Shown here piece by piece: positions 2,436 through 64,000 of a stretch of 64,000 nucleotides of DNA. The notes under the pieces were generated by a model. It worked only from the letters and a program-made list of their open reading frames with translations. It ran no database searches and was not told where the DNA came from. Positions within the stretch are counted from its first letter, which is position 1. Each line of letters starts with the position of its first letter. The stretch is taken from contig CALCJK010000020.1 of NCBI GenBank assembly GCA_937967455.1, positions 1 through 64,000 of the forward strand, read 5' to 3'. The translations under genes and the position numbers were made by a program. This DNA comes from an uncultured bacterium (GTDB lineage Bacteria; Bacteroidota; Ignavibacteria; UBA10030; BY39).

Positions 2436-2444
2436 TATAAACCT

Positions 2445-3266: not shown

Positions 3267-3335
3267 TTTGCTATCATTTACTTTTTGAATATACAAAAAT
3301 TTTGAAGGTATAACAAAAATTGTCAATAAATTAAA

Positions 3336-3360
3336 ATGGCTCCTATTGTTGAGGAGCCAT
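3336..3360 (-). terminator. hairpin terminator overlapping the end of the 40-aa basic gene
   Basis: A perfect 9-bp inverted repeat (ATGGCTCCT / AGGAGCCAT) with a 7-nt loop. Read on the minus strand it is followed by TTTAATTTATT, a moderate U-tract. The stem includes the stop codon of the small basic gene (3343-3345). On the plus strand the stem is also followed by a pyrimidine run (CTCTTTTTCTT), but no plus-strand gene ends here. Confidence 0.75.
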
Positions 3361-3465
3361 CTCTTTTTCTTCTTGCTTTTGAGCTAAAAGCATTTTTCGT
3401 TTAGCCTTTAACCTTTCTCTCCGTTTACGATGTTTAATTCTTACGAGTTTTGCTTTTTTATTCAT
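3343..3465 (-). CDS. small lysine/arginine-rich protein, 40 aa, unknown
   Basis: A short ORF translating to a 40-residue, extremely basic protein: MNKKAKLVRIKHRKRRERLK, then AKRKMLLAQKQEEKEMAPQQ. The N-terminal 25 residues are mostly K/R, and the tail is acidic and Gln-rich. It fills the gap between trxB and folP, starts with ATG and ends inside a strong hairpin terminator, which argues that it is a real, separately terminated gene. The composition recalls small ribosome-associated or nucleic-acid-binding proteins, but I do not recognise the family and assign no function. Confidence 0.65.
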   Translation of the reverse strand: MNKKAKLVRIKHRKRRERLKAKRKMLLAQKQEEKEMAPQQ

Positions 3466-3497
3466 ATAACCTTTTTGTTTTGTTATACATAAAAAAG

Positions 3498-32642: not shown

Positions 32643-32675
32643 AAAAATTATCTAAAACAATACATAAAAAATATT

Positions 32676-42422: not shown

Positions 42423-42761
42423 TTATTTGTAACTATCTACGGCTTCTTTAACCGTCTTGTATATCTCAAAGATATTCACAAGTTTTGTAATAATCAGAAG
42501 ATTTTCAATTTTCTTTGGAGCTGATGCGAGTTTCAAATTTCCGGAGGCATTTTTCATTGTTGTTAAAGCAGCGATTAACATTCCAAGCCCAGAACTGTTC
42601 ATAATTTTCACACCTTTTAAATCCAGAACAATTTTTTTCTTTCCCTGAGCTACAAGCTTATGCAAAAATTCATTGAGGAGAGTTGCATCAGTACCACCCA
42701 TAATGTTACCTTCGAGACTTATAACTGTAACATTGTTTTTTTCGTTGGTTTTAAATTTCAT
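42423..42761 (-). CDS. STAS-domain anti-sigma factor antagonist
   Basis: A 112-residue single STAS domain. The core is VTVISLEGNIMGGTDATLL, then KIVLDLKGVKIMNSSGLGML with the phosphorylatable Ser56/Ser57, and SAPKKIENLLIITKLV. It would act in a partner-switching system: the unphosphorylated form releases a sigma factor from its RsbW-type kinase. The RsbU-type phosphatase at 26108 is a candidate partner, although distant. Its start overlaps the secF stop by 4 nt, and a terminator follows. Confidence 0.9.
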   Translation of the reverse strand: MKFKTNEKNNVTVISLEGNIMGGTDATLLNEFLHKLVAQGKKKIVLDLKGVKIMNSSGLGMLIAALTTMKNASGNLKLASAPKKIENLLIITKLVNIFEIYKTVKEAVDSYK

Positions 42762-43675
42762 GTCTTGTTTTTATTTTTTTTCAAACTCCATTCATAAACA
42801 ATAGCACTAGCTATAAAAATTGAAGAGTACGTACCTGTAATTATACCAAATGTTAACGCGAAAGCAAAACCTCTTGTAATCTCTCCACCGAAAAGCATAA
42901 TTATTAACAATACGACAAAAATTGTACCCGATGTTATAACTGTTCTACTCAATGTATCATTAATACTTTTATTAATTATATCTTTAAATTGCATTGCTTT
43001 ATATATTTTCAAATTTTCTCTTATTCTATCAAAAATAACCACCGAATCATTAACTGATAAACCGACAAGCGTTAAAAAAGCGGCAATCATATTTTGATCT
43101 ATTTCAAAATCAAAAAATGGGCTAATACCATCGAGTAACGAAATCACTCCAAGTGTCACAATAACGTCATGGAATAGAGCTACAACCGCACCAACACCAT
43201 AAATAAACTTAAATCTGAAACCAATGTAAATCAACATAGCTATCAAAGAAAATATAACAGCATAAAATGCATCTCTTCTAAGCTCAGCACCAATTTTGGG
43301 ACCAATCTTCTGTTCCTCAAGAACTGAAATCTTGTTTTCTTTAAAATGTTCTGATAATGCACTTTTAATCCTATCTCCCACTTCTGTTCCAGTTTCCAAT
43401 TCTGTTGTACGTATTAGCACATTCCTTGGATCACCATAAACTTTAATTTCAGCTTTTGCAAAACCTTTTGCAGAAAGTGCATTTCTAATTTCTCCAATAC
43501 TTGGTGGATTATCAAATTGAATTATTAATTCGGTCCCACCTAAAAAATCGATTCCATATCCAATACCTTTAAATATCAAAGATATCAAACCAGTAGAAAT
43601 CACTATTAAGGATACAAAATAGAAAAACCTTCTTTTATCTAGGAAATTAATGTTTGTTTTTTTGAAAAATCTCAT
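42758..43675 (-). CDS. secF: protein translocase subunit SecF
   Basis: A 305-residue inner-membrane protein with six hydrophobic segments. The N-terminal motif GIDFLGGTELIIQF, the transmembrane motifs FRFKFIYGVGAVVALFHDV, and GLSVNDSVVIFDRIREN are diagnostic. It works with SecD to complete protein export using the proton gradient. The gene lies 23 nt after secD and overlaps the STAS gene by 4 nt. Confidence 0.97.
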   Translation of the reverse strand: MRFFKKTNINFLDKRRFFYFVSLIVISTGLISLIFKGIGYGIDFLGGTELIIQFDNPPSIGEIRNALSAKGFAKAEIKVYGDPRNVLIRTTELETGTEVGDRIKSALSEHFKENKISVLEEQKIGPKIGAELRRDAFYAVIFSLIAMLIYIGFRFKFIYGVGAVVALFHDVIVTLGVISLLDGISPFFDFEIDQNMIAAFLTLVGLSVNDSVVIFDRIRENLKIYKAMQFKDIINKSINDTLSRTVITSGTIFVVLLIIMLFGGEITRGFAFALTFGIITGTYSSIFIASAIVYEWSLKKNKNKT

Positions 43676-43698
43676 AATCTAAAAAGTCTCCGTTTTAA

Positions 43699-45567
43699 TT
43701 ATCCGAAACTAATTTTCATATTTCGATCTGCCATAATATTGAAAATAACATGTGTAATTACAATTGCACTGAACATACTAGCAACTATACCAATCATCAA
43801 TGTTAAGGCAAAACCCTGTATTGGACCACTACCAAAATTATATAAAATAACACCGGTAATAAATGTTGTTAAGTTAGAGTCAAAAATAGCAGTCCAGGCT
43901 TTACTATAACCTGCATCTATAGCAGCTCTTAAAGTTTTACCAGTTACAGCTTCTTCTCTAATGCGTTCAAAAATCAGTACATTAGCATCCACGGCAATTG
44001 CCATGGTTAAAATCATACCTGCAATACCGGGAAGTGTAAGCGTTCCATGGAAACCAGCTAGTACAGCAAGGATAAATAATAAGTTAAACAATAATGCAAA
44101 ATCTGCAACAAATCCACCTTTATTATAGTAAATAATCATAAATATTACTGTTAAAATAAATGCAATAAGTGATGAGTTGATCCCCCTACTAATAGAGTCC
44201 TGTCCAAGAGATGGTCCAACAATTTGTTGTTGGATTATATCTACCGGGGCAGGCAAAGCACCTGCTTTTAAAACGATTTCTAACAATTTTGCTTCATCTA
44301 TATTGTCTAACCCTTCAATCTGGGAATTTCCACCAATAATTTTGCTTCTGACAACAGGGGCAGAAAAAACTGCATTATCTAATACTATAGCAATTCGTTT
44401 ATTTATATTAGCACCAGTTATTCTCGCCCAATCTCGAGCTCCTTCTGCATTCATTTCCATTGTAACTATTGGCTGATTATAGTTAGGATCGATCGTAGCT
44501 CGAGCATTGACTATAACACCGCCTGTCAATTCAGCTTCACTTTTAACAGCATATAGTGTGTACCATTTTTTACCTTCAGCAATGAACGCATGTTTGGCTG
44601 ACCATAAAAATTCCATATCAGATGGAATAAGCTTTTGAATTTCTGGTCTGCGTAATATTCTATTAACTTTTTCACGGTTATCCTCTGAAACAAAAAATTC
44701 ACCTTGTGCTCTTTGATCTGGTCGTGCAAGATAATAAAAAGGATGTTCTTTTGCCGCTTCAAGTTCAGTCTTTTGTCCCTCAGGTATTGTCAATTCTGAA
44801 GTATCATTTGATGCAACATTCTTAGTCGTATCTGATATCTTACTTGTATCTGCACTTAGCGAATCTACTATCGGTTTACCAGCAAGAAATTTATCAATAG
44901 CATCTGTTACTTTGATAACAACCTCAGGGTCTTTTAATAGCTTAAATTCTAATAAAGCTGTACCTTGTAGAAGTTGTCTAACTTCTGCTTCTTTACTAAC
45001 TCCCGGAAGTTCAACTATAATTCTTCTTGCACCTTGTTTTTGTATCGTTGGCTCAGAAACACCATACTGATCTACACGATTACGAACAACCTCAATTGCT
45101 CTATCGACTGCATTTGTGGCTTCTGATTCAAGTTTTGATATAATTTCTTCGTTAGTTTCCCTAATACTTCCATAGTATCTGCTTAATCTTATTCCCCTAT
45201 CATTAAATTTTCTTAATAAGATCGAGGTTATAGGTTCATCTGAAGTTCTGGCATCAATCATCACCTCATTCATTATGGTATTGAAAGTTTCATCTTTATT
45301 CTTAGCAAGATCAATGAGTAATTTTGGAGTGTTAACTTCCAAAACGACTCTCATACCTCCCTGTAGATCCAATCCAAGCTTTATTCTTTTAAACTTAACA
45401 TCTCGGATGGCTTGCTCGTTTTCTTCTAAAAACTTAACGCTGTCTTCACCACGAAGGCTTTCTAATTTTTTCGAATAATTGTAATCCTGATAAGTTGGAT
45501 ACAATAAATATAAAGAAATAAGAACGACAGCGATAATAATAATAATTTTACCGCGTTCTTTCTTCAC
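43699..45567 (-). CDS. secD: protein translocase subunit SecD
   Basis: A 622-residue inner-membrane protein. The first transmembrane helix (10-25) is followed by LGLDLQGGMRVVLEV, the periplasmic P1 domain with RVDQYGVSEPTIQKQGARRIIVELPGV, and a C-terminal membrane part with AGMILTMAIAVDANVLIFERIREE. Residues about 235-340 form an insert rich in Ser/Thr/Asp (DTSKISDTTKNVASNDTSEL), longer than in E. coli at this position and common in Bacteroidota-type SecD. The start is a GTG at 45567 supported by GGAGG upstream. Confidence 0.97.
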   Translation of the reverse strand: MKKERGKIIIIIAVVLISLYLLYPTYQDYNYSKKLESLRGEDSVKFLEENEQAIRDVKFKRIKLGLDLQGGMRVVLEVNTPKLLIDLAKNKDETFNTIMNEVMIDARTSDEPITSILLRKFNDRGIRLSRYYGSIRETNEEIISKLESEATNAVDRAIEVVRNRVDQYGVSEPTIQKQGARRIIVELPGVSKEAEVRQLLQGTALLEFKLLKDPEVVIKVTDAIDKFLAGKPIVDSLSADTSKISDTTKNVASNDTSELTIPEGQKTELEAAKEHPFYYLARPDQRAQGEFFVSEDNREKVNRILRRPEIQKLIPSDMEFLWSAKHAFIAEGKKWYTLYAVKSEAELTGGVIVNARATIDPNYNQPIVTMEMNAEGARDWARITGANINKRIAIVLDNAVFSAPVVRSKIIGGNSQIEGLDNIDEAKLLEIVLKAGALPAPVDIIQQQIVGPSLGQDSISRGINSSLIAFILTVIFMIIYYNKGGFVADFALLFNLLFILAVLAGFHGTLTLPGIAGMILTMAIAVDANVLIFERIREEAVTGKTLRAAIDAGYSKAWTAIFDSNLTTFITGVILYNFGSGPIQGFALTLMIGIVASMFSAIVITHVIFNIMADRNMKISFG

Positions 45568-48794: not shown

Positions 48795-50474
48795 CTAAAA
48801 ACGATATGAATAACCTAAACTGGCAGTACTTTCAGTAAACTTTTTTGATGATATGCCTTTAATAGTATAAAATGAAGATTTTATTGCAAAAATAACAGAT
48901 TGTGCTGGAGCAATTGAATATGATGATTGCAAACTTGCGTTTAAAAGATTAACACTGCTTGAATTATTTAAACCCAAACCCAACGTGTTCGAAAACTTCC
49001 CTTTCATCATTCTATTCATAACTCTAAAATTAATACTTGTTGTAATTGTTTTTTCTCGATTCTGAGGTTCTACGGTATTCATCGTGAAAGATGGAGATAT
49101 TGTCCACTCTGGATTTATTACTGTTGTTATCATTAAACTTATATTTTGTGAACTCACATCAAATCCTTTTCTAATCACATTTTTGTCTTTTGAGCTCTGT
49201 GTCGAATAACCAATGTTTATGTTTTGATTCATCCCAAACAAAGTGAAAATTAAGTTTGTGCCAAGCATAATACTATTATTCTGATTTTCAATTTTTAGAG
49301 AATCTTTTTTAGCATCATTACGCATTACGAATTGAGAAATATTAATATTAAATGTTAGGAATTGTACTGGTTTAACAATAGCCATCGAACTATAATTGTT
49401 TCTAGTAGTTGTATAGATTTTCTGAGATGCAACGTTATCCTTTTGATTTTGATACATACCCTGAATAATAAAAGCATTTTTAAATAGACGGAAACCAAGC
49501 CCACCCTCAATAACTTTTCTATCATTAATCAAAGTACTCAAACCATGTGATGTAAAACCAGGACCAATTAAAAGATAATTAAATTTTGCATTCATTACAT
49601 TATAGTTGAAGTTCATATCTAAATTATAAGCATAATCAGCATTTGTAGATATTCTGGGTTTATATAAATTTTTTAAAAAGTCTGGTATGTCCTCGATTTT
49701 AATTTCACTGCTATAAATATCCCGACTAAAAACACTACCAACACCTTCTCCTTTGAGAATAAACACACCATTAAACAAATGTAGTTTAGTTCCAATTCCT
49801 AAAACAAGATTTTCCTGGGGAGCAATTCCATGATTACGAAGTGTATCTCTAAATTCAAGTGGTAATGATCTTACATTATCCTTTGAGCGGACAATATTTA
49901 AATCAATAAACGACTTTTCAGTAGTTCCATAGCCTATTTTAAGTCCAGCCAGATATCTTGAATACATTGAACTATAAATATCTGTTTTTATTGCTCTCCG
50001 AACCTGACCTCCAACTGTTTGAAATCTGAATTTACCAGGATTCAATTCAACTCCACCACCTCTAATTGTTACGCCACTCAATGAATATCTTGAAAATTCA
50101 TGGTTGAAATCACCAATGTGTGCTTTTCCCCATCCCCAATCAGGGTGTAGTGCAAACTGGTTGATTTGTTGTCGAGCGGCACTCCCTTCAGTAGATAGCA
50201 GAAAATCAAACGATATACTAAAATTCTGCAGTAATGTTAGCGTTGGTCTAAAAAATAACCTACCAGTAGAGGCTGGTCTTCTTCTTTCTCTTCCACTAAT
50301 TCGGTATATCTCACCATAAGCACCTGCTTCACCAGTAAATTTCACATAATTTGTGGCTTTACTGATGATCGATTTTTCTTGCTCAATATATTTTACCGTA
50401 TCTTCCGACTGAGCATAATTTAAATTATAGTTCACAAAAACAAAAATCAAAAGCATGAATATTTTTATTTTCAT
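48795..50474 (-). CDS. probable outer-membrane beta-barrel protein
   Basis: A 559-residue protein with a signal peptide (NYNLNYAQ at the cleavage region). The rest is a succession of amphipathic strands such as RLFFRPTLTLLQNFSISFDF, YLAGLKIGYG and FNINISQFVM, ending in aromatic YSYRF, the C-terminal signature of BAM-inserted barrels. Region 100-150 (HIGDFNHEFSRYSLSGVTIRG) suggests a plug or loop. No named family is recognised. It is the last gene of the cluster 48795-64000 and lies 14 nt after the TPR gene. Confidence 0.75.
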   Translation of the reverse strand: MKIKIFMLLIFVFVNYNLNYAQSEDTVKYIEQEKSIISKATNYVKFTGEAGAYGEIYRISGRERRRPASTGRLFFRPTLTLLQNFSISFDFLLSTEGSAARQQINQFALHPDWGWGKAHIGDFNHEFSRYSLSGVTIRGGGVELNPGKFRFQTVGGQVRRAIKTDIYSSMYSRYLAGLKIGYGTTEKSFIDLNIVRSKDNVRSLPLEFRDTLRNHGIAPQENLVLGIGTKLHLFNGVFILKGEGVGSVFSRDIYSSEIKIEDIPDFLKNLYKPRISTNADYAYNLDMNFNYNVMNAKFNYLLIGPGFTSHGLSTLINDRKVIEGGLGFRLFKNAFIIQGMYQNQKDNVASQKIYTTTRNNYSSMAIVKPVQFLTFNINISQFVMRNDAKKDSLKIENQNNSIMLGTNLIFTLFGMNQNINIGYSTQSSKDKNVIRKGFDVSSQNISLMITTVINPEWTISPSFTMNTVEPQNREKTITTSINFRVMNRMMKGKFSNTLGLGLNNSSSVNLLNASLQSSYSIAPAQSVIFAIKSSFYTIKGISSKKFTESTASLGYSYRF

Positions 50475-50488
50475 AAATCACCTTACAA

Positions 50489-52501
50489 TTATTTACTTTC
50501 TATTATTTTCCTTGCTTCACTTACTCGATTTGCCTTGTGTAAAATTTCAATCAATCTTTCACGAAGCATCACATTCCCCTTATTATAATTGTACAATTCC
50601 AGCATTTGATCACATAACTCATTTAATTTATTTTGTTGTTGATAAATCTTAATCAATCCATCAAATGCTGTTGTAAAATACTTATTACTCTTCAATAATC
50701 TTAAGTACGCCATTACTGCATTTTCATAGTTACCCAATTTTTCGTATATATTTGCCATTTTTAAATGGGCTTCTTCTTGATTTGGATTCACAGTTAATAT
50801 ATTTTTCAAAACTACTAATGCAGAATCATATTTACCTTCTTGTGCATAATTATCCGATCTGTGAAGCAGTAGCATAATACTCACTGGGTATTTATAAGAA
50901 TAATTATCAATCAAATTTTTAAAATCTGAAAATTTATAATTTTCTTTAAAATATTTTATAGATTCATCTATTATAAAATTTGCTTCTTCTACTTCAGCGT
51001 TTATAGGCGACATTTTTTCTAAATCATCCAATACAAGCTTTTCTTTAGCAAATGTTTTCTCTATATTTTTTTGTATTATATCAAACTGCTTAATGCTAAA
51101 ATCCAGAGACTTTCTAAAATACTTATCAGCATTAATATTGTCGTTTCGGAATTCGTATATCTTTGCAATCTTAAAATAAAGTGTTGAATTTTTTTGATCT
51201 AACTTCAAAGCATTGTTGTAGTAATAATATGCAGAATCATATTCACCTTCCTCATAATAGATATCCCCAATTTGAATATAAGGATATGGTAAATCCTCAT
51301 AATACTTTGCTAAAATTCTAAAAATATCAAGTGTCTCGTTGGTTTTTTTCTGCTTTTTTAAAATCTCTCCTTTCAACTTTAAAGCATCAAAATCTCTATT
51401 ATCAATCGACAAAGTTCTATTTAAATAAAAAATTGCACTATCAGATTTTTCCTCAGATTCAAATGATTTAGCAACTTCAAGATATGCTTTTAGATTTATC
51501 GAATCCAGTTTTAAGATATTGAAGTATATTGCCCTAGCTTCTTCATATTTTTTCTCTTTTAAATATGTTTCAGCAATTTGGAATTTTAAATCCATTTCGT
51601 CAGGGAAAACAGTTTCCATTCTTTGATAAACTTCTCTAATTTTATCCTGACGATTGAATAATTTCCAATAATCAACAACAGCTTCATATATTCTTCTTTT
51701 CTTTGGAAATCTTGAAATCAATGTATCATACAAACGCATAGCAGCATCAATCTTATTTGCATATCTATATATAAGAGCTAAATTTAAACCTATATCGAGA
51801 TCATCAGGTTTACTTTTATACAGCTTCTCATATATTTCAGCCGCCTTAGTAAATTCCGATTCTTGGAAATACACTTCAGAAAGGATCTTCAACATATCTT
51901 CATTTTCAGGAAATTTTTTCAATCCCTCTTTTATAATCTGCTCTGCTTCTTTATATTTCTTTTGCTCTAACAAGATTCCAGCTGCATTTATATATGAATT
52001 TTCATATAACGAATCATATTGCAATGATTTGAGGAAATAATTCTTAGCATTTTCTAAGTTTTTACTGACATATTGTTCTGAACCTAAATTAAAATATACG
52101 ATAGCTAAAATTTTCTTAGTTTCAATATTTTCAGGTCTGATTTTCAACGCCTTCAAGAGTGATTGTTCTGACTTGTGATAGTCTCTTTGTTCTGTGTATA
52201 GTTTACCTAAGAGCAAGTAAAAATCATTATTGTTCGGAAAATATTTAACTGCATTCTGGAGTACTTCAGCCGCTTTTTCATTTTTTTTAAGAGCTATATA
52301 TGTTTGTGCGAGATATTGATAAGCAATTTCACTTTTAGGGTTTTGCTTTAAAAAATTTTCAAAAATAAAGGCTGCTCGTTGATAATCACCGTTATTATAA
52401 GCGACAACTCCATCATTGAATTGAACTTGACAAAATAAAGAAACAGTAATTGCAAACAAAAAATTAATTAGGATGTACAGCTTCATTTTTTGAACTTTCA
52501 T
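50489..52501 (-). CDS. secreted or periplasmic TPR-repeat protein
   Basis: About 670 residues with a signal peptide (LINFLFAITVSLFCQ) followed by roughly sixteen TPR units, e.g. AYQYLAQTYIALKKNEKAAE, FYLLLGKLYTEQRDYHKSEQ, ENSYINAAGILLEQKKYKEAEQ (partly shown) and AHLKMANIYEKLGNYENAVM. TPR arrays act as scaffolds for protein complexes. Starts at 52501 (with an AGGA site) and 52486 are both possible. Either start overlaps the end of the Fn3 gene, so the two are coupled. It likely lies in the periplasm between the outer-membrane barrel and the other cluster products. Confidence 0.82.
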   Translation of the reverse strand: MKVQKMKLYILINFLFAITVSLFCQVQFNDGVVAYNNGDYQRAAFIFENFLKQNPKSEIAYQYLAQTYIALKKNEKAAEVLQNAVKYFPNNNDFYLLLGKLYTEQRDYHKSEQSLLKALKIRPENIETKKILAIVYFNLGSEQYVSKNLENAKNYFLKSLQYDSLYENSYINAAGILLEQKKYKEAEQIIKEGLKKFPENEDMLKILSEVYFQESEFTKAAEIYEKLYKSKPDDLDIGLNLALIYRYANKIDAAMRLYDTLISRFPKKRRIYEAVVDYWKLFNRQDKIREVYQRMETVFPDEMDLKFQIAETYLKEKKYEEARAIYFNILKLDSINLKAYLEVAKSFESEEKSDSAIFYLNRTLSIDNRDFDALKLKGEILKKQKKTNETLDIFRILAKYYEDLPYPYIQIGDIYYEEGEYDSAYYYYNNALKLDQKNSTLYFKIAKIYEFRNDNINADKYFRKSLDFSIKQFDIIQKNIEKTFAKEKLVLDDLEKMSPINAEVEEANFIIDESIKYFKENYKFSDFKNLIDNYSYKYPVSIMLLLHRSDNYAQEGKYDSALVVLKNILTVNPNQEEAHLKMANIYEKLGNYENAVMAYLRLLKSNKYFTTAFDGLIKIYQQQNKLNELCDQMLELYNYNKGNVMLRERLIEILHKANRVSEARKIIESK

Positions 52502-54461
52502 TTCCTGATGTATCAATTGATCTAATAATATAATAATGATGCTTGAGACCAGTTTTATCCAGATATTTTAGATCTTTTACCGGTTCACTATTTAATTTTG
52601 TAAAAACACCGGTTGGGAGATTAGAGCGATAAACATTATAACCTAATAAGTCAAAATCGACAACTCTTTCCCATTCAATTTGAACCCCTTGATCAGTCAT
52701 TTTTGCTTTCACATTTCTAGGAGAAGGTGGTGGACTAAAATCTTTAAACCATACTGTATCTTTTCGATTTTCCAAACTTCGATTTTTTGCAGAATCAAAT
52801 GCAACTGCAAAATAAATATATCGATTTCCTTTTTCAACTGTAGTATCCCGAAATTTTATAGGAGTTCTTGTAAAAGTTCCAAGTTCAATTTCTTTAAATC
52901 CATCTGAAATACGATATAGTTTATAAAACTCAACATCCAGAGATGGACTCATACCACAACTTATCTCCACATATCTACCGTCTACATTCTTTGCTATAAA
53001 ACCCCCTGGTGGCAGAGGAGGTTCATCATCAGGAATCTTTATCTTCATAGTAACTTTTGGACTTTCATTTCTTGAGCGATCAACAGCTGTAACACTCACA
53101 ATAAAACTTTTACCAGGTGTTAATCCAGCTTTTTGATATCCACTATCAGAAAAACTTGTTGATTTGATTGGTTCAAAAACAATTTTAGGTTGAACCTCCT
53201 CACTTTCACCACGATATACAAAATAGCCCATTACATCCTTAGCTTCAGAAGGTTTCCAATTAAGATGCAATATTCTATTATCGATGCGATAGCTTAAATC
53301 TTTTGGCGGGTCTGGAGGAGTTTTGTCAAGAGCAATTACAGACATTGCATTACTCATTCTGCTCTCATTCTTTGCCTTATCAACTGCACTAACTGAATAA
53401 AAATACTGGAGACCACCCAATACTGTTGTATCTAAAAAATATGGTTTTGTTAATGGAACAAGTTCACTATTAATTTTAGTAAATTTTTGATCTAAACCTG
53501 TTGAACGATAAACATTATAACCAACAGCATCCAGATCCATGCTCATATCCCATGCTAAACTTATTATTCCATCTCCTGATTCTACAATCAGGTTTAAAGG
53601 GATAGCAGGAGGAACATTATCTTTTGGTATTACTTTAACAATCTCAGATGGCTTGCTCATTCTTCCTATTGGATCAACAGCGACTATATAATAAGAATAC
53701 TCTCGATCATTTTCGAGCCAAAGATCAACATATTCCCTTGGAGCAGCATCGTCGCGTATGATGTATTCCTGATTAATTCTTTCAAAATCACTGTTTTCTT
53801 TTTTTCTGTAAATATCAAAGTATAATGCCAGATCATCAAAGTTTTGTTTCCAGGTTGGATAGTCCCAATTTAGTGTAACTCTGGAATCGCCTATCTGTAC
53901 CTTTATTTTAGAAGGAGATGTTGGGAATACTTCAACAGTTTTAATTTTTTTCTCGTATGTTTTAATTTCTTTACCAGATGAATTTAACACCACAATCCTA
54001 TAAACATACTCTTTATCTCTTTGCGCTGTAGTATCAAGAAATAATCTGCCGGTAACACGTGCAACATTTACACTCAATAAAGAAAGTAATCCACTTGAAA
54101 ATTGACTTCCACGTAGCTTTCTTAATACTTCAAAAGAATCATCGGTATCAAGTGCTTTAGTAACCATATCCCATTCGTCCCCAATCAATGACTTAGCTTC
54201 ATCTGGATCAAGTACCGGAGTAACAGGATTATTCTCATTCAACAAGATAAACTCGTTTACATCAGGTATTGGTCCTTTCCGATATATTAAAAACATCTCA
54301 TTACTTTTTGGTGCTTCTATAAGATATATAAATACTGAATCACCTCTCACCATTGTAAAAAAATCCATCTTTAATTGTGCAGATGATTGATAGCTTAAAA
54401 ATAGCAAATTTAGCAAAAAAAATAATATATTTATTTTTCCACACGACAACTTTTTTTTCAT
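52464..54461 (-). CDS. secreted protein with five fibronectin type III-like domains
   Basis: A 665-residue protein with a signal peptide (FFLLNLLFLSYQSSAQ). The first 180 residues form an unassigned domain. Five Fn3 domains of about 95 residues then follow, with linkers such as PPAIPLNLIV, PPDPPKDLSY, PPLPPGGFIA and PPPSPRNVKA, and repeated motifs GYNVYRS, YYIVAVD and SRNES. The first Fn3 begins near PTSPSKIKV. The ATG has a good AAGGAAGG site and lies 26 nt after the giant gene. There is no T9SS sorting domain at the end. Confidence 0.82.
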   Translation of the reverse strand: MKKKLSCGKINILFFLLNLLFLSYQSSAQLKMDFFTMVRGDSVFIYLIEAPKSNEMFLIYRKGPIPDVNEFILLNENNPVTPVLDPDEAKSLIGDEWDMVTKALDTDDSFEVLRKLRGSQFSSGLLSLLSVNVARVTGRLFLDTTAQRDKEYVYRIVVLNSSGKEIKTYEKKIKTVEVFPTSPSKIKVQIGDSRVTLNWDYPTWKQNFDDLALYFDIYRKKENSDFERINQEYIIRDDAAPREYVDLWLENDREYSYYIVAVDPIGRMSKPSEIVKVIPKDNVPPAIPLNLIVESGDGIISLAWDMSMDLDAVGYNVYRSTGLDQKFTKINSELVPLTKPYFLDTTVLGGLQYFYSVSAVDKAKNESRMSNAMSVIALDKTPPDPPKDLSYRIDNRILHLNWKPSEAKDVMGYFVYRGESEEVQPKIVFEPIKSTSFSDSGYQKAGLTPGKSFIVSVTAVDRSRNESPKVTMKIKIPDDEPPLPPGGFIAKNVDGRYVEISCGMSPSLDVEFYKLYRISDGFKEIELGTFTRTPIKFRDTTVEKGNRYIYFAVAFDSAKNRSLENRKDTVWFKDFSPPPSPRNVKAKMTDQGVQIEWERVVDFDLLGYNVYRSNLPTGVFTKLNSEPVKDLKYLDKTGLKHHYYIIRSIDTSGNESSKNEAVHPN

Positions 54462-54486
54462 TTTATCACCTTCCTTTCTATTAATA

Positions 54487-57400
54487 TTATGGGACTCTTA
54501 TTGAAGTCCAGAATTCAGCTGATACCAAACCAACAGTATTTGTGGTTCTTGCACCTATGTAAATATTATCACCTGTAGTTGCACCAAGATTACTGATTAA
54601 AAATGATAGTGGAGTTGCAGTCGTTAAAGTCATTGTATATGTTGACCATGAAACAGGAGTTGTTCTATTTCTTACCTGTACTGCATATTCAATTTTTGCA
54701 ACACCAGATTGTGGATCAGAAATATTAGAAAAGCTTATTGAAAGCATTTTAAATACACCTGTACCAGATATTGTTGGAGTTGCGATAGGAGTCACAGGTG
54801 GAGAGGAGTCAACATAATAAGGACCAGTGACACATGCTGAACTTAATTGATTATCAAAATTACGAGCCCGCACGCTGATATAATATGTACCATCAGACAA
54901 ACGATAATTAGGTAACAAAATGTAATACTTTGAGCCTGCTCTATTTACGCTTCTAAAGTCAATTGAATCATTCCAAGCTTTTATATTTGTTGAACCAGGG
55001 CTTGTACCAATCGCAATTTGATAACCCTTTATGTTTGTTTCATCATCTTTACTTAATTCAGAGAAAATAAGGTACACTGAACCTGCTGTTGGACCATACG
55101 AGATATTCAAATTTGGTTTAGTTGGTGGTGTCGGATCTACCGGTCTAAAAGGACCTAATCTCAATGGAGAACTAATAAGCCCAGCGTAGTTTACAGCCAC
55201 AATATCTACATAAAATGTATCAAGATAGGTAAGAATTCCACCTGAGATAGTTGCAGATAAGTTATTTCCAACTGAAGTCCAGTTTTCCGATCTCCTATTG
55301 GTATCTCTTTTCGATATAATTAAATATTGATATTCGTAAATACCAGATTGAAAATCACTTGCACTATCCCACATAGTTGAAATCGATGGAGATATACCTC
55401 CAGTAGTTAGAGTAAAAGTTGGTCCAGTTACAAATCCAGCACCTGTTCCAACACCACCTATAACCCCACCACCTATTGAAACGGTCGATGAACTTGAACT
55501 ACTACTTGTAATCTCGGATGGAAAAGGTATTGGTGGATTAACAGTGACACTTGTTGTAAGCATTGTCGAAACAACACTGCCCAATGGTAAAGTTAAAAAT
55601 TTTGCTCTTGGTGATGATGGTTGAGTGGTGTCAATCAAAAGTGGATATGAGCTACCTATTGCACTCCATAAGTTATCTCCATTTTTAGCTCTCACATTAA
55701 CATAATATCTTTGATTGTGTCGCAGATTTAATCCTATAATTGCAACTTCTGTTCTGCCACCTGCTGAAGTCCATCTAACAATTGAGCTATCCCCGGGATT
55801 GATACCAACTGAGTATTTATATTCAATTATTCCTGATTGAGGGTCGCTTGCCTGCCAGGAAACAAGAATTTGACTGACATCATAACTATAATAAACACTC
55901 AAACCAGAAATTGGCGTACCATGGGCACTTGGTTTGAATTTATATTGATTAAATCGTACAACTGGTGTATTAGGTGGCGTAGCATCAGCTGTAATATTAA
56001 ATGTTGATACTGGATTAGTTCCCGAAGGTGCAGTCGCAAAATTTAGAGTAAAATTGGCAAAACGAGTGTGCGTATATCCTGCACCTGCTCGTGCTCGAAC
56101 AAGTATTGAATTATATCTTTGTCGTTCTGTTGCTAATCTTTGCAAATAATACCTGTTTAAACTCCAAATATTGCCCACACTGTAATATTGAGCAAATGGT
56201 ATTACTGTTGTACTCCGGTCAAGAAAACTAATTGCATACTCAAATATTCCTAGTGGATGCGTCCCTGCCCAAGAAAATGTTGAATTATTCCAGAAATTCA
56301 TATCTTGAGTCATTATATTAATTGAAGATACTCTCGGTATTGTTAATTCACGAGTTAATTGGTTTTTCTTGTTTAATAAATCAGAATATGAAATTGGTCT
56401 TCTCTTGATACTATCGGGTTGATCTCTCTTCCAGTATATATATCGATCATAAATACCGTATAATTTTTCAGTCAGCTGGATTTTGTTGTTATACAATTCG
56501 TCCACTGCATTTGTGTAAGTTGCTTGCACCTGGTTTAAATTTTGTAATTCCTGATCCAGTTGAGTTGGGTTTTGAGCCATCATATATCTTGCTGTCGAAT
56601 CTAATGCTCTTAAACCCTTTTGAGAAGTATAAAACCACAGTTCCATTCCTTTATCTATGCATGCCTGTGTTTTCTGACTGGAATTTAATGAGTTCCAATT
56701 AGTTGTAAAATTTTCAAGTTGCTGTATTCTATCGGTAGCTTCAGCTAATGATAGTATCATATCCAATCTCCATAAGGCTACTCTATATTTTTGATCATCG
56801 CTTAAGCGGTTTGTCATTGAAGTCAAGGCACTTCGTATCTGCGATTCCCTTCCATTTATTTGATAAAGAGCTCGAGATGCCCATTCCGATTCTCTGTAAA
56901 AATAATATGAATTTTCTTTGTAAAATTCTTCAATTCTCCTCATTAGGTTAACATACTCTGCACAAACATCATTATGAGTCACAGAAGTGAGCGCTGAGAT
57001 CGCACTCAATGCATAACTTAAATTCAAACTCACAGCACCCGACACTGAGGACGATGCGGTGGTAGGTGATACACTACGATAGAATGCCTGATCAATACTT
57101 AAAATACCATTTTCGAGGTTTGTTATCCTCTCAATTATACTGGGTTCGATTGAGGCATATTCTTCAGAAGCACGATTCATAGTATTGGCATTTTGTTCTG
57201 CTAGCGAATTACTTATTGAAAAATCAGGTTGTGATGTAACATTTTTTACAGTATCACCAGATGTTGTTACTGAAGTTGAAGTTGTTGGAGAATTAAAGTT
57301 AGCAGAAGCAACAGGATTTCCTGCCACAGAATGTTCATTTACGCTTAAGGATTGAATATTAGCTTGAACTTCACTTAATCGAGTTGCTACTCTATTTCGA

Positions 57401-60400
57401 TGCTGATTTGCTAATTCTATAAGATTATCAATCCGATTTCTATATACTCTTAAAGAATCCTGAATTGATAGTGGAGGTACATCTGGTGCATTCCATATAT
57501 TTGTGGCTACCCATTGTAATTGGGAATATTCCGCATCAGTTGGATTGTTTGAAGTCATCTCACTCGATAAAATTCCAGCAATAAGAAATGCACAAAGAAA
57601 ATTATTTCTGGCACAACGACCAACGTAGTAAAGTTTGTTAAATGCGGCGATGAGTTGAGCATCTGAAACTCTTAGCGCATCGAGTTGGGTATTATTCATT
57701 TCTTCCATTGCAGCAACTCTAGCTTCCTGCATATCCTCAGCTGCCTGTCTAGCTTCTTCTATAAGTTGTTCCATCTCAGGATCTCTTCCAAATCCACCAT
57801 CCACACCACGATTATAAAATTTTGCCCACACACTTCCACTCCAGCTTATAAAAAGTACTCTAATTTTTAATCCTGCCACACCATATAAGAAGAATCTTGG
57901 CTCTCCTATCAGTGCACCTTCCAACCAACCTTTAGCGGAGACAACCCCAGCTAAAACAGATGCTTCAATCCATGTTTTAAAATATGCACCCCATGAAACA
58001 TCTCTGATGTACCATATAGTTGTTTCAAAACCTGCACTAATCTTAACGATCCAGAAATTCATTGACCAGCTGCTACTCATAGAGAGTAAAAACCCGGGGT
58101 TACCAATAAACAGATCACTCCTTGCATTAATAAGTGATAAAATATTGATATTCAAATTACCATTTATTCCCCAAGCACTTGAACTATAAACATAAAATCC
58201 CAAACCTGCACTTCCTTCTACAAAGACTGATACTTTAAGTTTGATATTAATATTTCCTTCAGCGAAATGATTCTGGAAACCAACTGCAAGGAAGATGTTA
58301 CCATTCAAATATGTATCTTGCCTGAGCAATGTTACCTTACCATATAAAGCAAAGTATCTATTTGTAATTGTAAGTAAAATTCTACCTTGTACAAGTGCAT
58401 CAGTTACTATAGCAGCACGAGCATATAATAATACTGCAAAGGAACTGGGTTCGGCAGTAATTCTAGACCTTGTAGTATCATCAAGTCCAGCCATAGTCCG
58501 AACAAGCTCTAAATCACTAGCTTCTGGATTGTAAAAGAAACCACCTCCCACACTCATTAAATTAATAGCTGGTGGAATAAATATCGAAACATCAGCAGCA
58601 ACAAAAACTCCAAAACTTGTTCTTCCAGATATTTTAGAAACTTTACCTATAACAACTACCTCATAAGCATCAACTATTCGACCTCTACCAGCCATTCTTA
58701 GATAATAACCACTTGCAATTTGCTCATATGATAAATCTGTCCTAAATTGAATCACACCAGGAACATTAACATTAGCATTCCTTATTATTAAACTTTTAGA
58801 CGTTCTGGTTCTATAAGTTAAAAATTCTTCAATACCACCACCTCCAACACCGTCTATATCTATTTGTGCACCAAAACTGAAGTAACTCTCAACTGATATT
58901 TGCTGAGTTGAAGTATCAGCCCTTGATGTGGTTGAAGGCAGAGAACCACTCCTTACACTAATAGTCGTAGGAGTACTACTAAAACCAATATCTCTTAATT
59001 CAATATTTACGACATCTACAATTCTTAAGCTTCCGCCGCGTATTGAAATATTACTGATATTCCCATTTGAAGACAATTTCCAACTTTCAAATTGTATTGA
59101 ACCACTTACACCACTTACATCCAGCGCTAAATTACCTGAGAGTATCAATTCAAAATTACTCGCTGAACTAAGTACAACATTTGGAAGATTTAGCTTAAGA
59201 GCTTCCCAGTTAATATTTAATAAATTAGGAGATACCTGTAAATTTCCCCATCTAACGGTTCGATCAAATAGAACTTCCAATCCAGGATTTACACTTCCAC
59301 CTGAACGGTTTCCTAACTTGATCCATTTGTTAGGATCATTATTTAAATAAATGTCGGCAATAAACTTTAAACTACTCTGTCTAATGTTAGAAACATTAAG
59401 ATTCAATGATACATATATTGGATCGAACTTAGCAATCCATAAATCAAATTCTGTTCTATCCCCCGATCCTAAACCTGATGCTTCATCAATAATTCTAATA
59501 TCTGCACTTCCTGATATCGTCCCATTGGGATTTACACTGAAGAAATACCTTTGGTGTGTGGTATCACATGGTTCAGGTAATTTAACAAATCCTGCAACTC
59601 TAAATGTATTTGATACTATCTGCATAGTATCCACAGCGATGTAATTTGGTACGATGTAAAATGCCCGACTTATAAGATTCAATCCAGATATCGATATAGA
59701 ACCATTCGTTCCAATCCTTAAACCCCTGAACTCACTAACATTATCCAGAAATGTTATTTCACCACTTAAATTAACATAAAAGATTCGGCTCTCGTAAGCA
59801 AATGATATTGCTCGGTCTGAACCCAGGTCCTTAAGTTCTATTTGAGCACCAAATAAATTGAAACGCTGGTAATCTGCTGGTAAAGTTACACTTACTGTTG
59901 GTACTGTAACCCCGCTTTTAGATATTTTTAAACCGGAAAATGAAACCGCAAAATTATCTCCAAAACTTGGCACTCGAAGTGTACCACTTAGTGTAAGTTG
60001 AATATCATCGCGTGTAAAACTCAAATCAAACGCTGGATTAGTTCCAATAGGTTGAGGTTGGAAATTGGCTAATAAAAGAGGCAATTTCGCATCTGGTAAG
60101 TGCGAGATATCAAATGAAAAATTAAATCCTCCTGAACCATACTGTGCAGTAAAATGTATTGCAGCAGTATCTCTATCTGTCCTGAAAAATTCAGTAACTA
60201 TATCCCCGCTCATTCTAACTGTTGGACTTCCAGATCCAAACGAGGCTTCGACTCCCTGAATTCGAAACATTGCCATAGTTCCAAGATTTAATCTTGCGAT
60301 ATGGGTTTCAGTAGTACTGTGTGTTGTTGAATAACTACCTAATCTAACGTTTCCACTAACGCCATCTCTTGAAATAGATAGAGTATCTATATTTACAATT

Positions 60401-63400
60401 AATCCACCTAAAGCATCAGGAAGTGTAAGTTTTGCACTCGCTTTTAAACCATAACTCAGACCAAATTTTGCATATTGAAGTTGTGTAATATTTAATGGGA
60501 TACCAAATCTTGAAAGTGAAATAAGTGAATCAACACCTGATGGTGGAGTAACATTTATTGATCCTTCGACAAATTCAAAAGTCGATGTATTAACTACCAC
60601 ACTAAAACTGATACCAATTTCAGGAGGTGATGAATCACTATATTTTAAGGCAGGGATTACAAGCTGGATATTTCTTCCAGGTCGGGTGGATATTCTCATG
60701 CCTCCACTCACTGGTTCAGTTTGTACCAGGACTGAGTCACCCATTTTCAATCTTAAATATGCGATTGATGTATCAGGGAGTGGCAGTTTTTCTGGAATAG
60801 GAATAATTCCAAAAATATCACCCGGAACGAATCCTGTTGAATCCAATCTTGCTATGAATCTATCTCCGAGATAAAAATCTGCAGTACCAGATCTTACTCT
60901 GAATGGATTATAAGATATTGTAAAGTTAGAAGAGAATACACATCTTACTGCATCATAATTTGTGTTATTCCATCTGACAAGTACATTTGTTTCGCCTGAT
61001 GCAGAAATTCCATCTCGCGAGAGTGATAATCCAGTTGGCAATGTAAGTCGCACAGCACTTTCTTCAGTTAAGCTTACATCAATTGGCGCTGCACTCCAGC
61101 TTAAGCCACCAGTACCAATTACAAACTTTAATGCAAACTGACTGCTAAATGTTGCTCGACCAGATTTAATATCAAGATTTCTTATATCAAACAGAAGATT
61201 TTCAAAATTAACACCAATACTTGCCCCACCGGACAATACAAGATTGCTCATACCATTTATTCTCAACCCTTCACGATTCAGTGATGCATTATTGATTGTA
61301 AAATTCAGTACAGGATTGTCAGTTGGTAAACCAAGTCGGAATGGCCTTGTAATTGCAATTTCACCTGATAAAATTTCAGCATGTAACAAATCAATTACTA
61401 AATTACCACTTGCTTCAATCGTATCAGTAGCTGCGGTACCAGGAATTCTTAGCGATCCAGTGAGATCAATTATTGCATTCTGTTGATCTGCACCTACAGA
61501 AAAACTTACGGAAGAGTTTACAATTCTTAGCTGACCAATTCCAAAACTAATAGGACAAGTTGGGATAAAGTTTGAAATTGTACCACTTAATCTACCACGG
61601 CTATCTATATTTAACAATGCAGCCATTGTGTTGTTAACTCCAGAATCAGTACCACACCTCATAAATTCTGGCAATTGCAGGTCGCCTCTCAAATTTATAT
61701 TGAAATTTTGTTGTCCAGCGACTTCATTCAAATTTCCAGAAATCTGACGAACAAAATAATTCAACCCGCTGCCAAGTGGAAGGCGTAAACCAGTATCAAA
61801 ATTCTTAGTTTCGATAGTACCGGTAATTTTACCTGCTCTGTAACCTGCATTCAGTATACTTATTCTTGGATTTCTTAAAGCGGATGCAGCATCAGTCGGA
61901 AGTTGAGGTAAACTAAGTTCCAGATCAAATGCAAACCCCAAATCTCCCAAATCACCACTAAATGTAAACCAGTTAAAAGTAAATGGCCTCATCCTGAATG
62001 CAAGTGGTTTGATTCCGAAACCAGCGATAATTCTGGCAGAATCAGATAATTCTGGTATTGAAATAGCAGGAATATGAATTCCAGTTCTTCTAATTTCTAC
62101 ACCGCTAATATCTGGTAATTCAAAATTCAAATCCGGGAATTTAAATTTTAATCCAAGATCGAAGACGAAATCCCAACCAGATATTTTATTCCAAGAGAGT
62201 TCAGGTACTGTAAAGCTAGAAAGGCCTAAAACTATCCAACCTAAATTCAATGTTGGAGGTGTAGATGGCATATCAACATTAAAATTGTTTATATTTAGTC
62301 CATGTTGACTTAGAACAAATGTAGCGGATGCACCGTATTGATTACCAGTTCCAAGATTTAATCTAATTCCTCCTGTAAGATTTAAATTAAAATTCAAATT
62401 GAATGGAATTAATTGTGTTTCTATCGAACCATTCACACGGTTAATATTTAAATTCACTTTATCGCTACCAGAAACTAATGGAATATTTTGATTAAGTGTT
62501 AAATCAACATCTGCTAAAAATCTTCCATCTGGCATTAATGTCAATTGTAAATTTTCAGTGCCGATATTTTCACCAAACAACTTTAATTGTGAATTAAAGC
62601 GGAAACCGTTAACACCACCGATATCACCGTAGAACAAATCTTTCAAGGCAAATGGAATTCCAAATTCACTCAAATCCCATTCGCTAAGTTGGTCTGTAGG
62701 AATATTTACATTTAAATTACCACTAACTAGATCTCTTGAAATCGCATCTATGGTTATGTCAAAATTTACCAACAATTCAGGTGGTGTTGGTTTTGAGAAT
62801 TGAAGCGCAGGAATAACTAATCTTATTGGTTGCCCAGTGCGGGTCTTTAATCTCACACCAGCAGAAACAGTTGAATAATCTATTAAAAATTCTCCACCAC
62901 TTTTTATTTGTAGATACGCAATGTTCTCAACAGGTAATGGTAACCTTTCTGGTAAAAGCGCAACGCCAAAATAACTCAAGTCAGGTAAAAATCCAGAAGA
63001 ATTAATTATCGCTATTCGACTTGAACCAGAGAATATCTCAATCTGACCTCTTGAAACTTTAAAAGGACTGAATGAAAAAGCTAAATCATTAGAAAATATG
63101 CCATCGAGTTCAGGAAGATCTCTGCCTTCGTATTTCAAGTGAATATTGGCTCTTCCCCGGGTATAAAATCCTGAATTATTTATTCCTAACGTATCTGGAA
63201 GATTCAACATTATTCCAACCGCCTCTGTAATTGAGCTATTTCTTGGAACTGCCTGGAATCGAAGATCAGCACCATCAAGCGATACCTTAAATGCAAATGG
63301 CAAATCAAATATTACGCTTCCAGAAATTATTGAAAAATCACGCCAATCAATGTTTAAATTGCTAAATGTAACACCTATATTTGTACCTCCACTTAGAGCC

Positions 63401-64000
63401 AATTGATGTCTTCCATCAATAATTATAGCTCTTTCTGTTATATTAGCACGTGCTATGTTAAATGTTAAAGCTGGTAATGTCGGCGGCAAATCGAAATTAA
63501 AGGGTGTACGAATTTCTCCATTCAATGTAATTAATTGATTTTGAATCAGTTCATAACTCAAATTAACATCAGCTGTTGCTGGAGTTGTACCTGAAATGCT
63601 AAACGATATATTTCCCGTTGCATCAAATCGGATACGCTGTTCACCACCTTCAAGATAAAAATTAATATTGGTGTTTCTGAACGAGAAGTTGAACAATCCG
63701 ATTTGCAAGGAACAAGTAGGAACTATGTTCTCTATCACCCCAGATAATTTTCCATTACCCGACAGTTGAATTGATGTTCTCATTAAATCGAGTGCGGATG
63801 TTCCTGTACCACAGGAAAAGACAGAAGGAAGCTCAAGTTTTCCATTCAATCTTAAGTTAGGTTGAAAATTAAAACCAGAGCTATTATCATACGAAGCAGA
63901 AATTGAACCTGAAAACTGTAATATTCTAAAATTAATTCCACTAAATAATGGCAAAGCGAATCCTGGTTCAGAAAAGAATCTGGATGGTATCTCAGCATTA
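54487..64000 (-). CDS. giant modular surface/envelope protein (N-terminus beyond window)
   Basis: The frame is open to the window edge (46 nt beyond the TTG at 63954), so the gene is partial; at least 3,170 residues are visible. Numbering here starts at 63954. Residues about 1-719, 720-1415 and 1416-2040 are three beta-rich modules; copies 1 and 2 align along their length (LPLPVENIAYLQIK with LPLPDTSIAYLRLK). Cys48-x32-Cys81 recurs exactly as Cys767-x32-Cys800, while copy 3 keeps only Cys1463. Residues 1,800-2,040 are hydrophobic beta/Gly-rich. About 2,055-2,600 is helical and Gln/Ala-rich. A Ser/Gly-rich linker (about 2,815-2,850) lies within Fn3-like domains that end the protein. No T9SS domain. 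TamB/AsmA-like lipid-bridge resemblance is only a guess. Confidence 0.85.
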   Translation of the reverse strand, partial: NAEIPSRFFSEPGFALPLFSGINFRILQFSGSISASYDNSSGFNFQPNLRLNGKLELPSVFSCGTGTSALDLMRTSIQLSGNGKLSGVIENIVPTCSLQIGLFNFSFRNTNINFYLEGGEQRIRFDATGNISFSISGTTPATADVNLSYELIQNQLITLNGEIRTPFNFDLPPTLPALTFNIARANITERAIIIDGRHQLALSGGTNIGVTFSNLNIDWRDFSIISGSVIFDLPFAFKVSLDGADLRFQAVPRNSSITEAVGIMLNLPDTLGINNSGFYTRGRANIHLKYEGRDLPELDGIFSNDLAFSFSPFKVSRGQIEIFSGSSRIAIINSSGFLPDLSYFGVALLPERLPLPVENIAYLQIKSGGEFLIDYSTVSAGVRLKTRTGQPIRLVIPALQFSKPTPPELLVNFDITIDAISRDLVSGNLNVNIPTDQLSEWDLSEFGIPFALKDLFYGDIGGVNGFRFNSQLKLFGENIGTENLQLTLMPDGRFLADVDLTLNQNIPLVSGSDKVNLNINRVNGSIETQLIPFNLNFNLNLTGGIRLNLGTGNQYGASATFVLSQHGLNINNFNVDMPSTPPTLNLGWIVLGLSSFTVPELSWNKISGWDFVFDLGLKFKFPDLNFELPDISGVEIRRTGIHIPAISIPELSDSARIIAGFGIKPLAFRMRPFTFNWFTFSGDLGDLGFAFDLELSLPQLPTDAASALRNPRISILNAGYRAGKITGTIETKNFDTGLRLPLGSGLNYFVRQISGNLNEVAGQQNFNINLRGDLQLPEFMRCGTDSGVNNTMAALLNIDSRGRLSGTISNFIPTCPISFGIGQLRIVNSSVSFSVGADQQNAIIDLTGSLRIPGTAATDTIEASGNLVIDLLHAEILSGEIAITRPFRLGLPTDNPVLNFTINNASLNREGLRINGMSNLVLSGGASIGVNFENLLFDIRNLDIKSGRATFSSQFALKFVIGTGGLSWSAAPIDVSLTEESAVRLTLPTGLSLSRDGISASGETNVLVRWNNTNYDAVRCVFSSNFTISYNPFRVRSGTADFYLGDRFIARLDSTGFVPGDIFGIIPIPEKLPLPDTSIAYLRLKMGDSVLVQTEPVSGGMRISTRPGRNIQLVIPALKYSDSSPPEIGISFSVVVNTSTFEFVEGSINVTPPSGVDSLISLSRFGIPLNITQLQYAKFGLSYGLKASAKLTLPDALGGLIVNIDTLSISRDGVSGNVRLGSYSTTHSTTETHIARLNLGTMAMFRIQGVEASFGSGSPTVRMSGDIVTEFFRTDRDTAAIHFTAQYGSGGFNFSFDISHLPDAKLPLLLANFQPQPIGTNPAFDLSFTRDDIQLTLSGTLRVPSFGDNFAVSFSGLKISKSGVTVPTVSVTLPADYQRFNLFGAQIELKDLGSDRAISFAYESRIFYVNLSGEITFLDNVSEFRGLRIGTNGSISISGLNLISRAFYIVPNYIAVDTMQIVSNTFRVAGFVKLPEPCDTTHQRYFFSVNPNGTISGSADIRIIDEASGLGSGDRTEFDLWIAKFDPIYVSLNLNVSNIRQSSLKFIADIYLNNDPNKWIKLGNRSGGSVNPGLEVLFDRTVRWGNLQVSPNLLNINWEALKLNLPNVVLSSASNFELILSGNLALDVSGVSGSIQFESWKLSSNGNISNISIRGGSLRIVDVVNIELRDIGFSSTPTTISVRSGSLPSTTSRADTSTQQISVESYFSFGAQIDIDGVGGGGIEEFLTYRTRTSKSLIIRNANVNVPGVIQFRTDLSYEQIASGYYLRMAGRGRIVDAYEVVVIGKVSKISGRTSFGVFVAADVSIFIPPAINLMSVGGGFFYNPEASDLELVRTMAGLDDTTRSRITAEPSSFAVLLYARAAIVTDALVQGRILLTITNRYFALYGKVTLLRQDTYLNGNIFLAVGFQNHFAEGNINIKLKVSVFVEGSAGLGFYVYSSSAWGINGNLNINILSLINARSDLFIGNPGFLLSMSSSWSMNFWIVKISAGFETTIWYIRDVSWGAYFKTWIEASVLAGVVSAKGWLEGALIGEPRFFLYGVAGLKIRVLFISWSGSVWAKFYNRGVDGGFGRDPEMEQLIEEARQAAEDMQEARVAAMEEMNNTQLDALRVSDAQLIAAFNKLYYVGRCARNNFLCAFLIAGILSSEMTSNNPTDAEYSQLQWVATNIWNAPDVPPLSIQDSLRVYRNRIDNLIELANQHRNRVATRLSEVQANIQSLSVNEHSVAGNPVASANFNSPTTSTSVTTSGDTVKNVTSQPDFSISNSLAEQNANTMNRASEEYASIEPSIIERITNLENGILSIDQAFYRSVSPTTASSSVSGAVSLNLSYALSAISALTSVTHNDVCAEYVNLMRRIEEFYKENSYYFYRESEWASRALYQINGRESQIRSALTSMTNRLSDDQKYRVALWRLDMILSLAEATDRIQQLENFTTNWNSLNSSQKTQACIDKGMELWFYTSQKGLRALDSTARYMMAQNPTQLDQELQNLNQVQATYTNAVDELYNNKIQLTEKLYGIYDRYIYWKRDQPDSIKRRPISYSDLLNKKNQLTRELTIPRVSSINIMTQDMNFWNNSTFSWAGTHPLGIFEYAISFLDRSTTVIPFAQYYSVGNIWSLNRYYLQRLATERQRYNSILVRARAGAGYTHTRFANFTLNFATAPSGTNPVSTFNITADATPPNTPVVRFNQYKFKPSAHGTPISGLSVYYSYDVSQILVSWQASDPQSGIIEYKYSVGINPGDSSIVRWTSAGGRTEVAIIGLNLRHNQRYYVNVRAKNGDNLWSAIGSSYPLLIDTTQPSSPRAKFLTLPLGSVVSTMLTTSVTVNPPIPFPSEITSSSSSSSTVSIGGGVIGGVGTGAGFVTGPTFTLTTGGISPSISTMWDSASDFQSGIYEYQYLIISKRDTNRRSENWTSVGNNLSATISGGILTYLDTFYVDIVAVNYAGLISSPLRLGPFRPVDPTPPTKPNLNISYGPTAGSVYLIFSELSKDDETNIKGYQIAIGTSPGSTNIKAWNDSIDFRSVNRAGSKYYILLPNYRLSDGTYYISVRARNFDNQLSSACVTGPYYVDSSPPVTPIATPTISGTGVFKMLSISFSNISDPQSGVAKIEYAVQVRNRTTPVSWSTYTMTLTTATPLSFLISNLGATTGDNIYIGARTTNTVGLVSAEFWTSIRVP
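59500..63954 (-). repeat. coding repeats: three ~2.1-kb modules of the giant gene
   Basis: Corresponding motifs recur about 2,157-2,170 bases apart (for example IPALQFSKPTPPE near 62810 and IPALKYSDSSPPE near 60645; the CGT...PTC pair near 63812 and 61655). A third, weaker copy begins with the Cys codon at 59566-59568. The copies are diverged at DNA level, so this is ancient duplication. Confidence 0.75.

Follow-up and report, generated by a model that had tools for sequence, protein, structure and literature searches.

We describe a conserved module of four genes, encoding a giant protein, an Fn3 protein, a TPR protein and a predicted outer-membrane barrel, in a stretch of 64,000 nucleotides (the window; positions 1 to 64,000 of contig CALCJK010000020.1) from an uncultured bacterium of the class Ignavibacteria. 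We favour the view, with a probability of roughly 0.55, that this module delivers the giant, which is exported by Sec, to the outer membrane and retains it at that site. All four open reading frames (ORFs) lie on the minus strand, in the order giant, Fn3, TPR, barrel:

54487..64000, minus strand: in-window part of the giant, an ORF covering its residues ~701-3870, with homologues of 3.5 to 6.4 thousand amino acids (aa)
52464..54461, minus strand: Fn3 protein, 665 aa, with a signal peptide (Pfam fn3, E 3.9e-12)
50489..52501, minus strand: TPR protein, with a signal peptide (Pfam TPR_19, E 1e-48), whose homologues adjoin giants in many loci
48795..50474, minus strand: predicted outer-membrane barrel, an ORF of 559 aa with a signal peptide and a C-terminal Phe

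The giant is cut by the edge of the window and not in the genome: the contig itself is 68,130 bases long, the full gene occupying 54487..66099 of it and encoding 3,870 aa from an ATG start. Its N-terminus (MKKLYYFSLLLLLIGFSFTAAQ) is, as judged from the sequence by eye, a typical Sec signal peptide. A preliminary description of this DNA had reported a protein of more than 3,150 residues; the giant is real, and the upstream sequence extends it to the length given here. The same description had four adjacent same-strand genes with gaps of 25 nucleotides (nt) or less or overlaps, likely forming one operon. The ORFs and their spacing are as it claimed (a gap of 25 nt between giant and Fn3 genes, an overlap between Fn3 and TPR genes and a gap of 14 nt between TPR and barrel genes), and the cluster is an operon-like conserved system whose gene order is kept across phyla. 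The TPR ORF itself opens at a TTG codon at 52516 (50489..52516, 675 aa), and a start at the ATG codons at 52501 or 52486 is more likely. TPR and Fn3 repeats were the sole Pfam matches of the four proteins. In the Fn3 protein the five units counted earlier are present and linked, while our reading of the family alignment adds, at the N-terminus, a divergent Fn3-like domain that contains a helical insertion and was missing from the earlier count. A promoter and terminator scan gave signals no more frequent than in shuffled sequence.

A profile of the central part of the giant, searched against 395 genomes of the phylum, was positive in 24, and the open frames of these relatives mostly measure 3,463 to 6,423 aa. 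Neighbourhoods were compared at 23 loci of this phylum sample and at 70 named loci from GTDB genomes, obtained with a subset alignment and the motif GGGFFY[NR]P; a few loci occur in both collections. The Fn3 gene is directly next after the giant in 56 of the 62 cases with a visible 3' end, usually within 65 nt. The six other cases comprise insertions and changes of gene order, a contig end, a split ORF and an artefact of ORF calling: a small ORF stands between giant and Fn3 genes in L101, the barrel gene does so in L113, L114 and L133, the ORF is split in L151, and an apparent loss of the Fn3 gene in G230 proved to be the artefact. None of the six is a convincing case of a missing Fn3 gene. 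All four genes were observed together in about 40 loci, in two main orders, namely that of the window and barrel-giant-Fn3-TPR, and the TPR protein is seen beside giants only.

These loci come from Ignavibacteriota, Bacteroidota including Kapaibacterium, Balneolota (Balneolales), Rhodothermota and Calditrichota, and further from Zixibacteria, Latescibacterota, WOR-3, KSB1, Neomarinimicrobiota and others; the phylum names are those of the records, some of which are metagenome bins and possibly misassigned. In a tree, the giant of the window groups with those of Ignavibacteriales, next to Zixibacteria and Calditrichota, and thus the distribution crosses phyla. Conservation of gene order had been put forward as a check on the cluster; since the same neighbours recur in dozens of loci across phyla, chance adjacency is ruled out. 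Some genomes encode more than one giant. Three genomes of one genus (G183, G091 and G071; loci L071-L073 and L077-L079) encode two giants, of ~6,390 and ~4,060 aa, and each of these has an Fn3 gene of its own behind it; a Chlorobiota genome (M_MetaBat.63; L097/L103) carries two giants in tandem with an Fn3 gene and a response-regulator-like gene between them.

The second line of evidence comes from the N-terminus of the giant. The first 275 residues of the giants align with those of the large proteins encoded at loci of the barrel family with an hhalign probability of 100 (E 8e-43, 275 columns). Several of these large proteins are matched by the NCBIfam model TIGR02542, or TANFOR (E 7e-7, 5e-6), whereas the giant of the window is matched weakly (E 1.7e-4, 21.5 bits, under the cut-off of 67). 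By sequence comparison, the head of the giant is homologous to those of TANFOR proteins, a class of polymorphic toxins in Bacteroidetes (Jana, Salomon and Bosis 2020, PMC7073777). These toxins have been suspected to be substrates of the type IX secretion system (T9SS) because genes of T9SS substrates lie nearby, and their gene neighbourhoods are enriched in Fn3 (PMC7073777). Among the open-licence papers searched, the phrase "TANFOR domain" was found in that paper alone, and the word "barrel" is absent from it. The initial view that the cluster matched no nameable system holds for the body of the giant and for the barrel, neither of which has a Pfam or PDB sequence match; it does not hold for the head.

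We observed a close pairing of such heads with the barrel family. Of 89 barrels examined, 80 are paired with a head, eight of them by fusion and 72 through a head gene no more than three genes away; in five of the remaining nine, the 5' end of the giant lies off the contig. The head model was built with the heads of giants and the first 15 barrel loci. A further 20 loci, picked by barrel match only, constitute a fair test because they were absent from the building of the model, and 18 of them have a head, in seven cases by fusion (the eighth fusion is in G285). At the level of genomes, strong matches to both head and barrel occur in 89 of the 395, to the head only in four, to the barrel only in nine and to neither in 293, and the association persists within genomes positive for SprA, the translocon of the T9SS. 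Because the genomes are related, the p-values for this association are too small; even so, the pattern is nearly one-to-one and extends over dozens of families. In loci L176, L179-L184 and L190 the barrel is fused behind a TANFOR-like head in single proteins of 863-1,016 aa.

The barrel family is found in 168 of the 395 genomes, far more widely than the giant, and its surroundings explain why: at 40 further loci nearly every barrel either adjoins a large protein, often of 700-2,700 aa, that shares its N-terminal head with the giant, frequently alongside an Fn3 gene, or is itself fused to such a head. At its core the system comprises a head protein, the barrel and the Fn3 protein, a combination that occurs much more widely than the one with four genes. 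The two forms vary within one genus: apart from the genome of the window, the sample includes a single member of its genus, G001, which lacks the giant and encodes, at locus L167 on contig C1, a 2,307-aa TANFOR-headed protein together with barrel and Fn3 genes. The genome of the window has, in addition, a second, divergent barrel of 786 aa (L174; G000 contig C11, ~32007-33491), which adjoins a protein of 358 aa whose TANFOR-like head is weak; G001 has this pair as well.

The beta-barrel-like character first ascribed to the last gene product is borne out by an AlphaFold2 model with 26 strands (mean predicted local distance difference test score, pLDDT, 88.7), in which the predicted barrel begins at residue 44. 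Its best fold match is MtrB of the Mtr complex (Z 21.9, root mean square deviation (rmsd) 5.0 over 443 residues), the runner-up reaching Z 17.7 and ushers Z ~16. Searches with the family alignment found no Pfam or NCBIfam sequence family and no PDB relative. POTRA/FhaC-type families of two-partner secretion (TpsB) gave no Pfam match in the barrel family, and usher models are not among the Pfam matches of 33 of its members.

In the giant, a head of two domains is followed by about 2,500 residues predicted to form amphipathic beta-strands, then by a helical part and finally by Fn3-like domains:

contig 65275-66042, minus strand, beyond the window: TANFOR-like head, residues ~20-275, by homology
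57775..64000, minus strand: in-window part of the amphipathic beta region (as a whole residues ~280-2775), by AlphaFold2, strand alternation and internal duplication
58525..58548, minus strand: hallmark motif GGGFFYNP, residues 2518-2525, the most conserved stretch among 20 homologues
55990..57777, minus strand: helical region, residues ~2775-3370, by alpha-type periodicity at 2751-3250 and by the helix that ends the AlphaFold2 model
54490..55989, minus strand: C-terminal Fn3-like domains, residues ~3371-3870, by Pfam fn3 (E 1.4e-4), self-similarity and family-wide conservation

Across 23 aligned giants, the hydrophobic periodicity is beta-type at 251-2750, alpha-type at 2751-3250 and weakly beta beyond. 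BLAST of 300-residue pieces among themselves revealed an internal duplication of ~720 residues (~420-1174 versus 1137-1893, up to 38% identity). Residues 1700-2800, modelled with AlphaFold2 from 40 sequences, are predicted to be all-beta (mean pLDDT 82, predicted template modelling score, pTM, 0.45); the model ends in ~23 strands of ~11 residues with short turns, followed by a helix. In its last 470 residues charged side chains make up 4% on the hydrophobic face of the strands versus 24% on the opposite one. The top Foldseek matches of the model are ApoB100, LptD and ushers. A closed barrel within the giant (2400-2770) was considered, but the model superposes on porins at an rmsd of ~12-15 A whereas the barrel protein reaches ~5 A; a curved open or irregular sheet is therefore likelier, as a lead only given the pTM of 0.45. 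Pfam, NCBIfam and PDB sequence searches with alignments assigned no family to the body of the giant.

The T9SS provides a possible context for export. SprA is over the cut-off in the genome of the window. Within the phylum sample, every one of the 168 genomes with the barrel and of the 24 with the giant encodes it, as do 24 of 25 giant-bearing genomes of several phyla (21 above the cut-off). As SprA is common and the listed negatives fall nearly all in one family, this co-occurrence is weak evidence and suggestive only. In relatives, large T9SS-tailed proteins often neighbour the cluster. Within the set L055, L056, L060, L062 and L153, the cluster of Balneolaceae-type loci is followed by an ECF-sigma-like gene and by genes for surface-type proteins of very large size, some T9SS-tailed; other loci have a sigma factor and a Ser/Thr kinase upstream. 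In L058, genes putatively encoding spike- and adaptor-like proteins of the type VI secretion system, as judged by their N-termini, lie downstream of the Fn3 gene.

From these observations we infer the following mechanism. The giant would be exported by Sec, and its head would direct it to its barrel; the barrel would recognise and bind the TANFOR-like head, and then either hold the giant at the outer membrane or let it pass, so that the giant reaches the surface. The barrel is the likely dedicated surface partner of the giant and may export, anchor or assemble it. The Fn3 protein would be a partner throughout; the TPR protein would help assembly or serve as a scaffold, in the giant form alone. 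SprA may assist, with the barrel acting like SprF as the shuttle or anchor of SprB, or the barrel may be the exit itself; we consider a T9SS-assisted route somewhat more likely than one over the barrel alone. That the barrel family is a new outer-membrane translocation pore, serving a T9SS-independent two- or three-gene system for TANFOR-headed proteins including both toxins and giants, is a possibility to which we give only tentative credence.

Several results weigh against the proposed delivery to the outer membrane with the help of the T9SS. SprA is present in 304 of the 395 genomes, and the listed SprA-negatives are nearly all of one family. Type A (TIGR04183/Por_Secre_tail) and type B (TIGR04131) sorting domains gave no Pfam or NCBIfam match on the giant, Fn3 or barrel proteins at E up to 1, and a motif scan found the type A tail absent from every complete member of the four families, in agreement with the earlier remark that T9SS sorting domains are missing from all four. 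The giant as a plain substrate with a T9SS C-terminal domain (CTD) is thereby rejected. Of 33 barrel members, one alone matched PF11751 (PorP/SprF), at E 0.087. Finally, an amphipathic beta body of ~2,500 residues is unusual for an adhesin.

This amphipathic body is the reason for the main rival, in which the giant stays in the periplasm as a hydrophobic conduit, its beta groove or belt carrying lipid or other hydrophobic cargo to the barrel as outlet, in the manner of Lpt/AsmA-type bridges. The amphipathicity of the strands over ~2,500 residues, the ranking of ApoB100 and LptD as best Foldseek matches and a weak AsmA match in one triad relative (E 0.003) are in line with it. However, the giant has no AsmA, TamB or chorein family match and no membrane anchor apart from its signal peptide, and fold matches at an rmsd of ~12-15 A are to be expected of any large antiparallel sheet. 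AsmA/TamB/VPS13-type beta-groove proteins are not among the listed fold matches of the model, a result compatible with such a fold given that the model covers part of the giant with a pTM of 0.45. Furthermore, TANFOR relatives with toxin C-termini favour export (PMC7073777). We regard such a conduit as rather unlikely.

Less probable still is that the giant is itself a polymorphic toxin of the TANFOR class, whose C-terminal tip the cluster delivers, as its homologous head and the toxin tips of TANFOR proteins (PMC7073777) might suggest. The part following the beta domain measures 1,027-1,235 residues in 19 of 20 giants and is alignable and conserved to its end; it has no Pfam toxin domain, Fn3/Ig-like matches being the only ones of note, and the next gene is the conserved Fn3 gene rather than an immunity-like one. 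The giant is probably not a toxin; the giants look like a structural component that stays constant within the class of TANFOR-headed proteins. An MtrB-like electron conduit, with the barrel sheathing a redox protein, has in its favour that MtrB is clearly the best fold match, and is highly improbable because none of the 13 cysteines of the giant is in CXXCH spacing, no multihaem partner was seen in the neighbour clusters and a fold by itself reveals no function.

The module shares features with several known systems and differs from each in others. Like TANFOR toxins, it has large proteins that are exported by Sec and bear a homologous head at the N-terminus, lies close to genes for Fn3 proteins and T9SS substrates, and occurs in genomes equipped with the T9SS; unlike them, the giants are of 3.5-6.4 thousand aa with a conserved non-toxin C-terminus, are accompanied by a TPR gene and a partner barrel, and occur outside Bacteroidota as well. 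The SprB-SprF pair and type B CTD proteins with PorP-like shuttles (PMC9143113, PMC12618676) likewise combine a giant with an adjacent cognate barrel, a T9SS background and TPR proteins in the apparatus, and are the parallel in function. In contrast to these, our giant lacks a type A or B CTD, the barrel is not PorP/SprF by sequence and is predicted to have 26 strands, and recognition is apparently N-terminal. MtrB/PioB resemble the barrel in the predicted 26-strand fold but have no sequence match to it, and no haem partner is present here. Chaperone-usher systems (PapC, FimD) also use a large monomeric barrel to handle Ig-like proteins, but the barrel has no usher family match, and no plug or pilin-type subunits were seen. 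Searches of open-licence papers for the giant or its genera gave no result, and the papers searched yielded no description of the barrel as a partner, of the core of three genes or of the four-gene form with the giant; the class of the head is already published.

As for the surroundings of the cluster, a hemN-like gene lies 150 nt upstream of the giant and a peroxiredoxin-like gene downstream, on the same strand. SecD- and SecF-like genes, identified by eye, are found a few genes away at 42758-45567 of the window.

For the exit of TANFOR proteins the T9SS was proposed in 2020 on the strength of neighbouring genes, with neither a signal nor a partner protein to point to (PMC7073777). A barrel family that is fused or adjacent to nearly every head is a concrete candidate for that exit. 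The giants, at ~3.5 to 6.4 thousand aa and with a body that has no Pfam family, form one of the largest protein families in these genomes, and they belong to a conserved multi-gene module of several phyla rather than being a lineage-specific adhesin.
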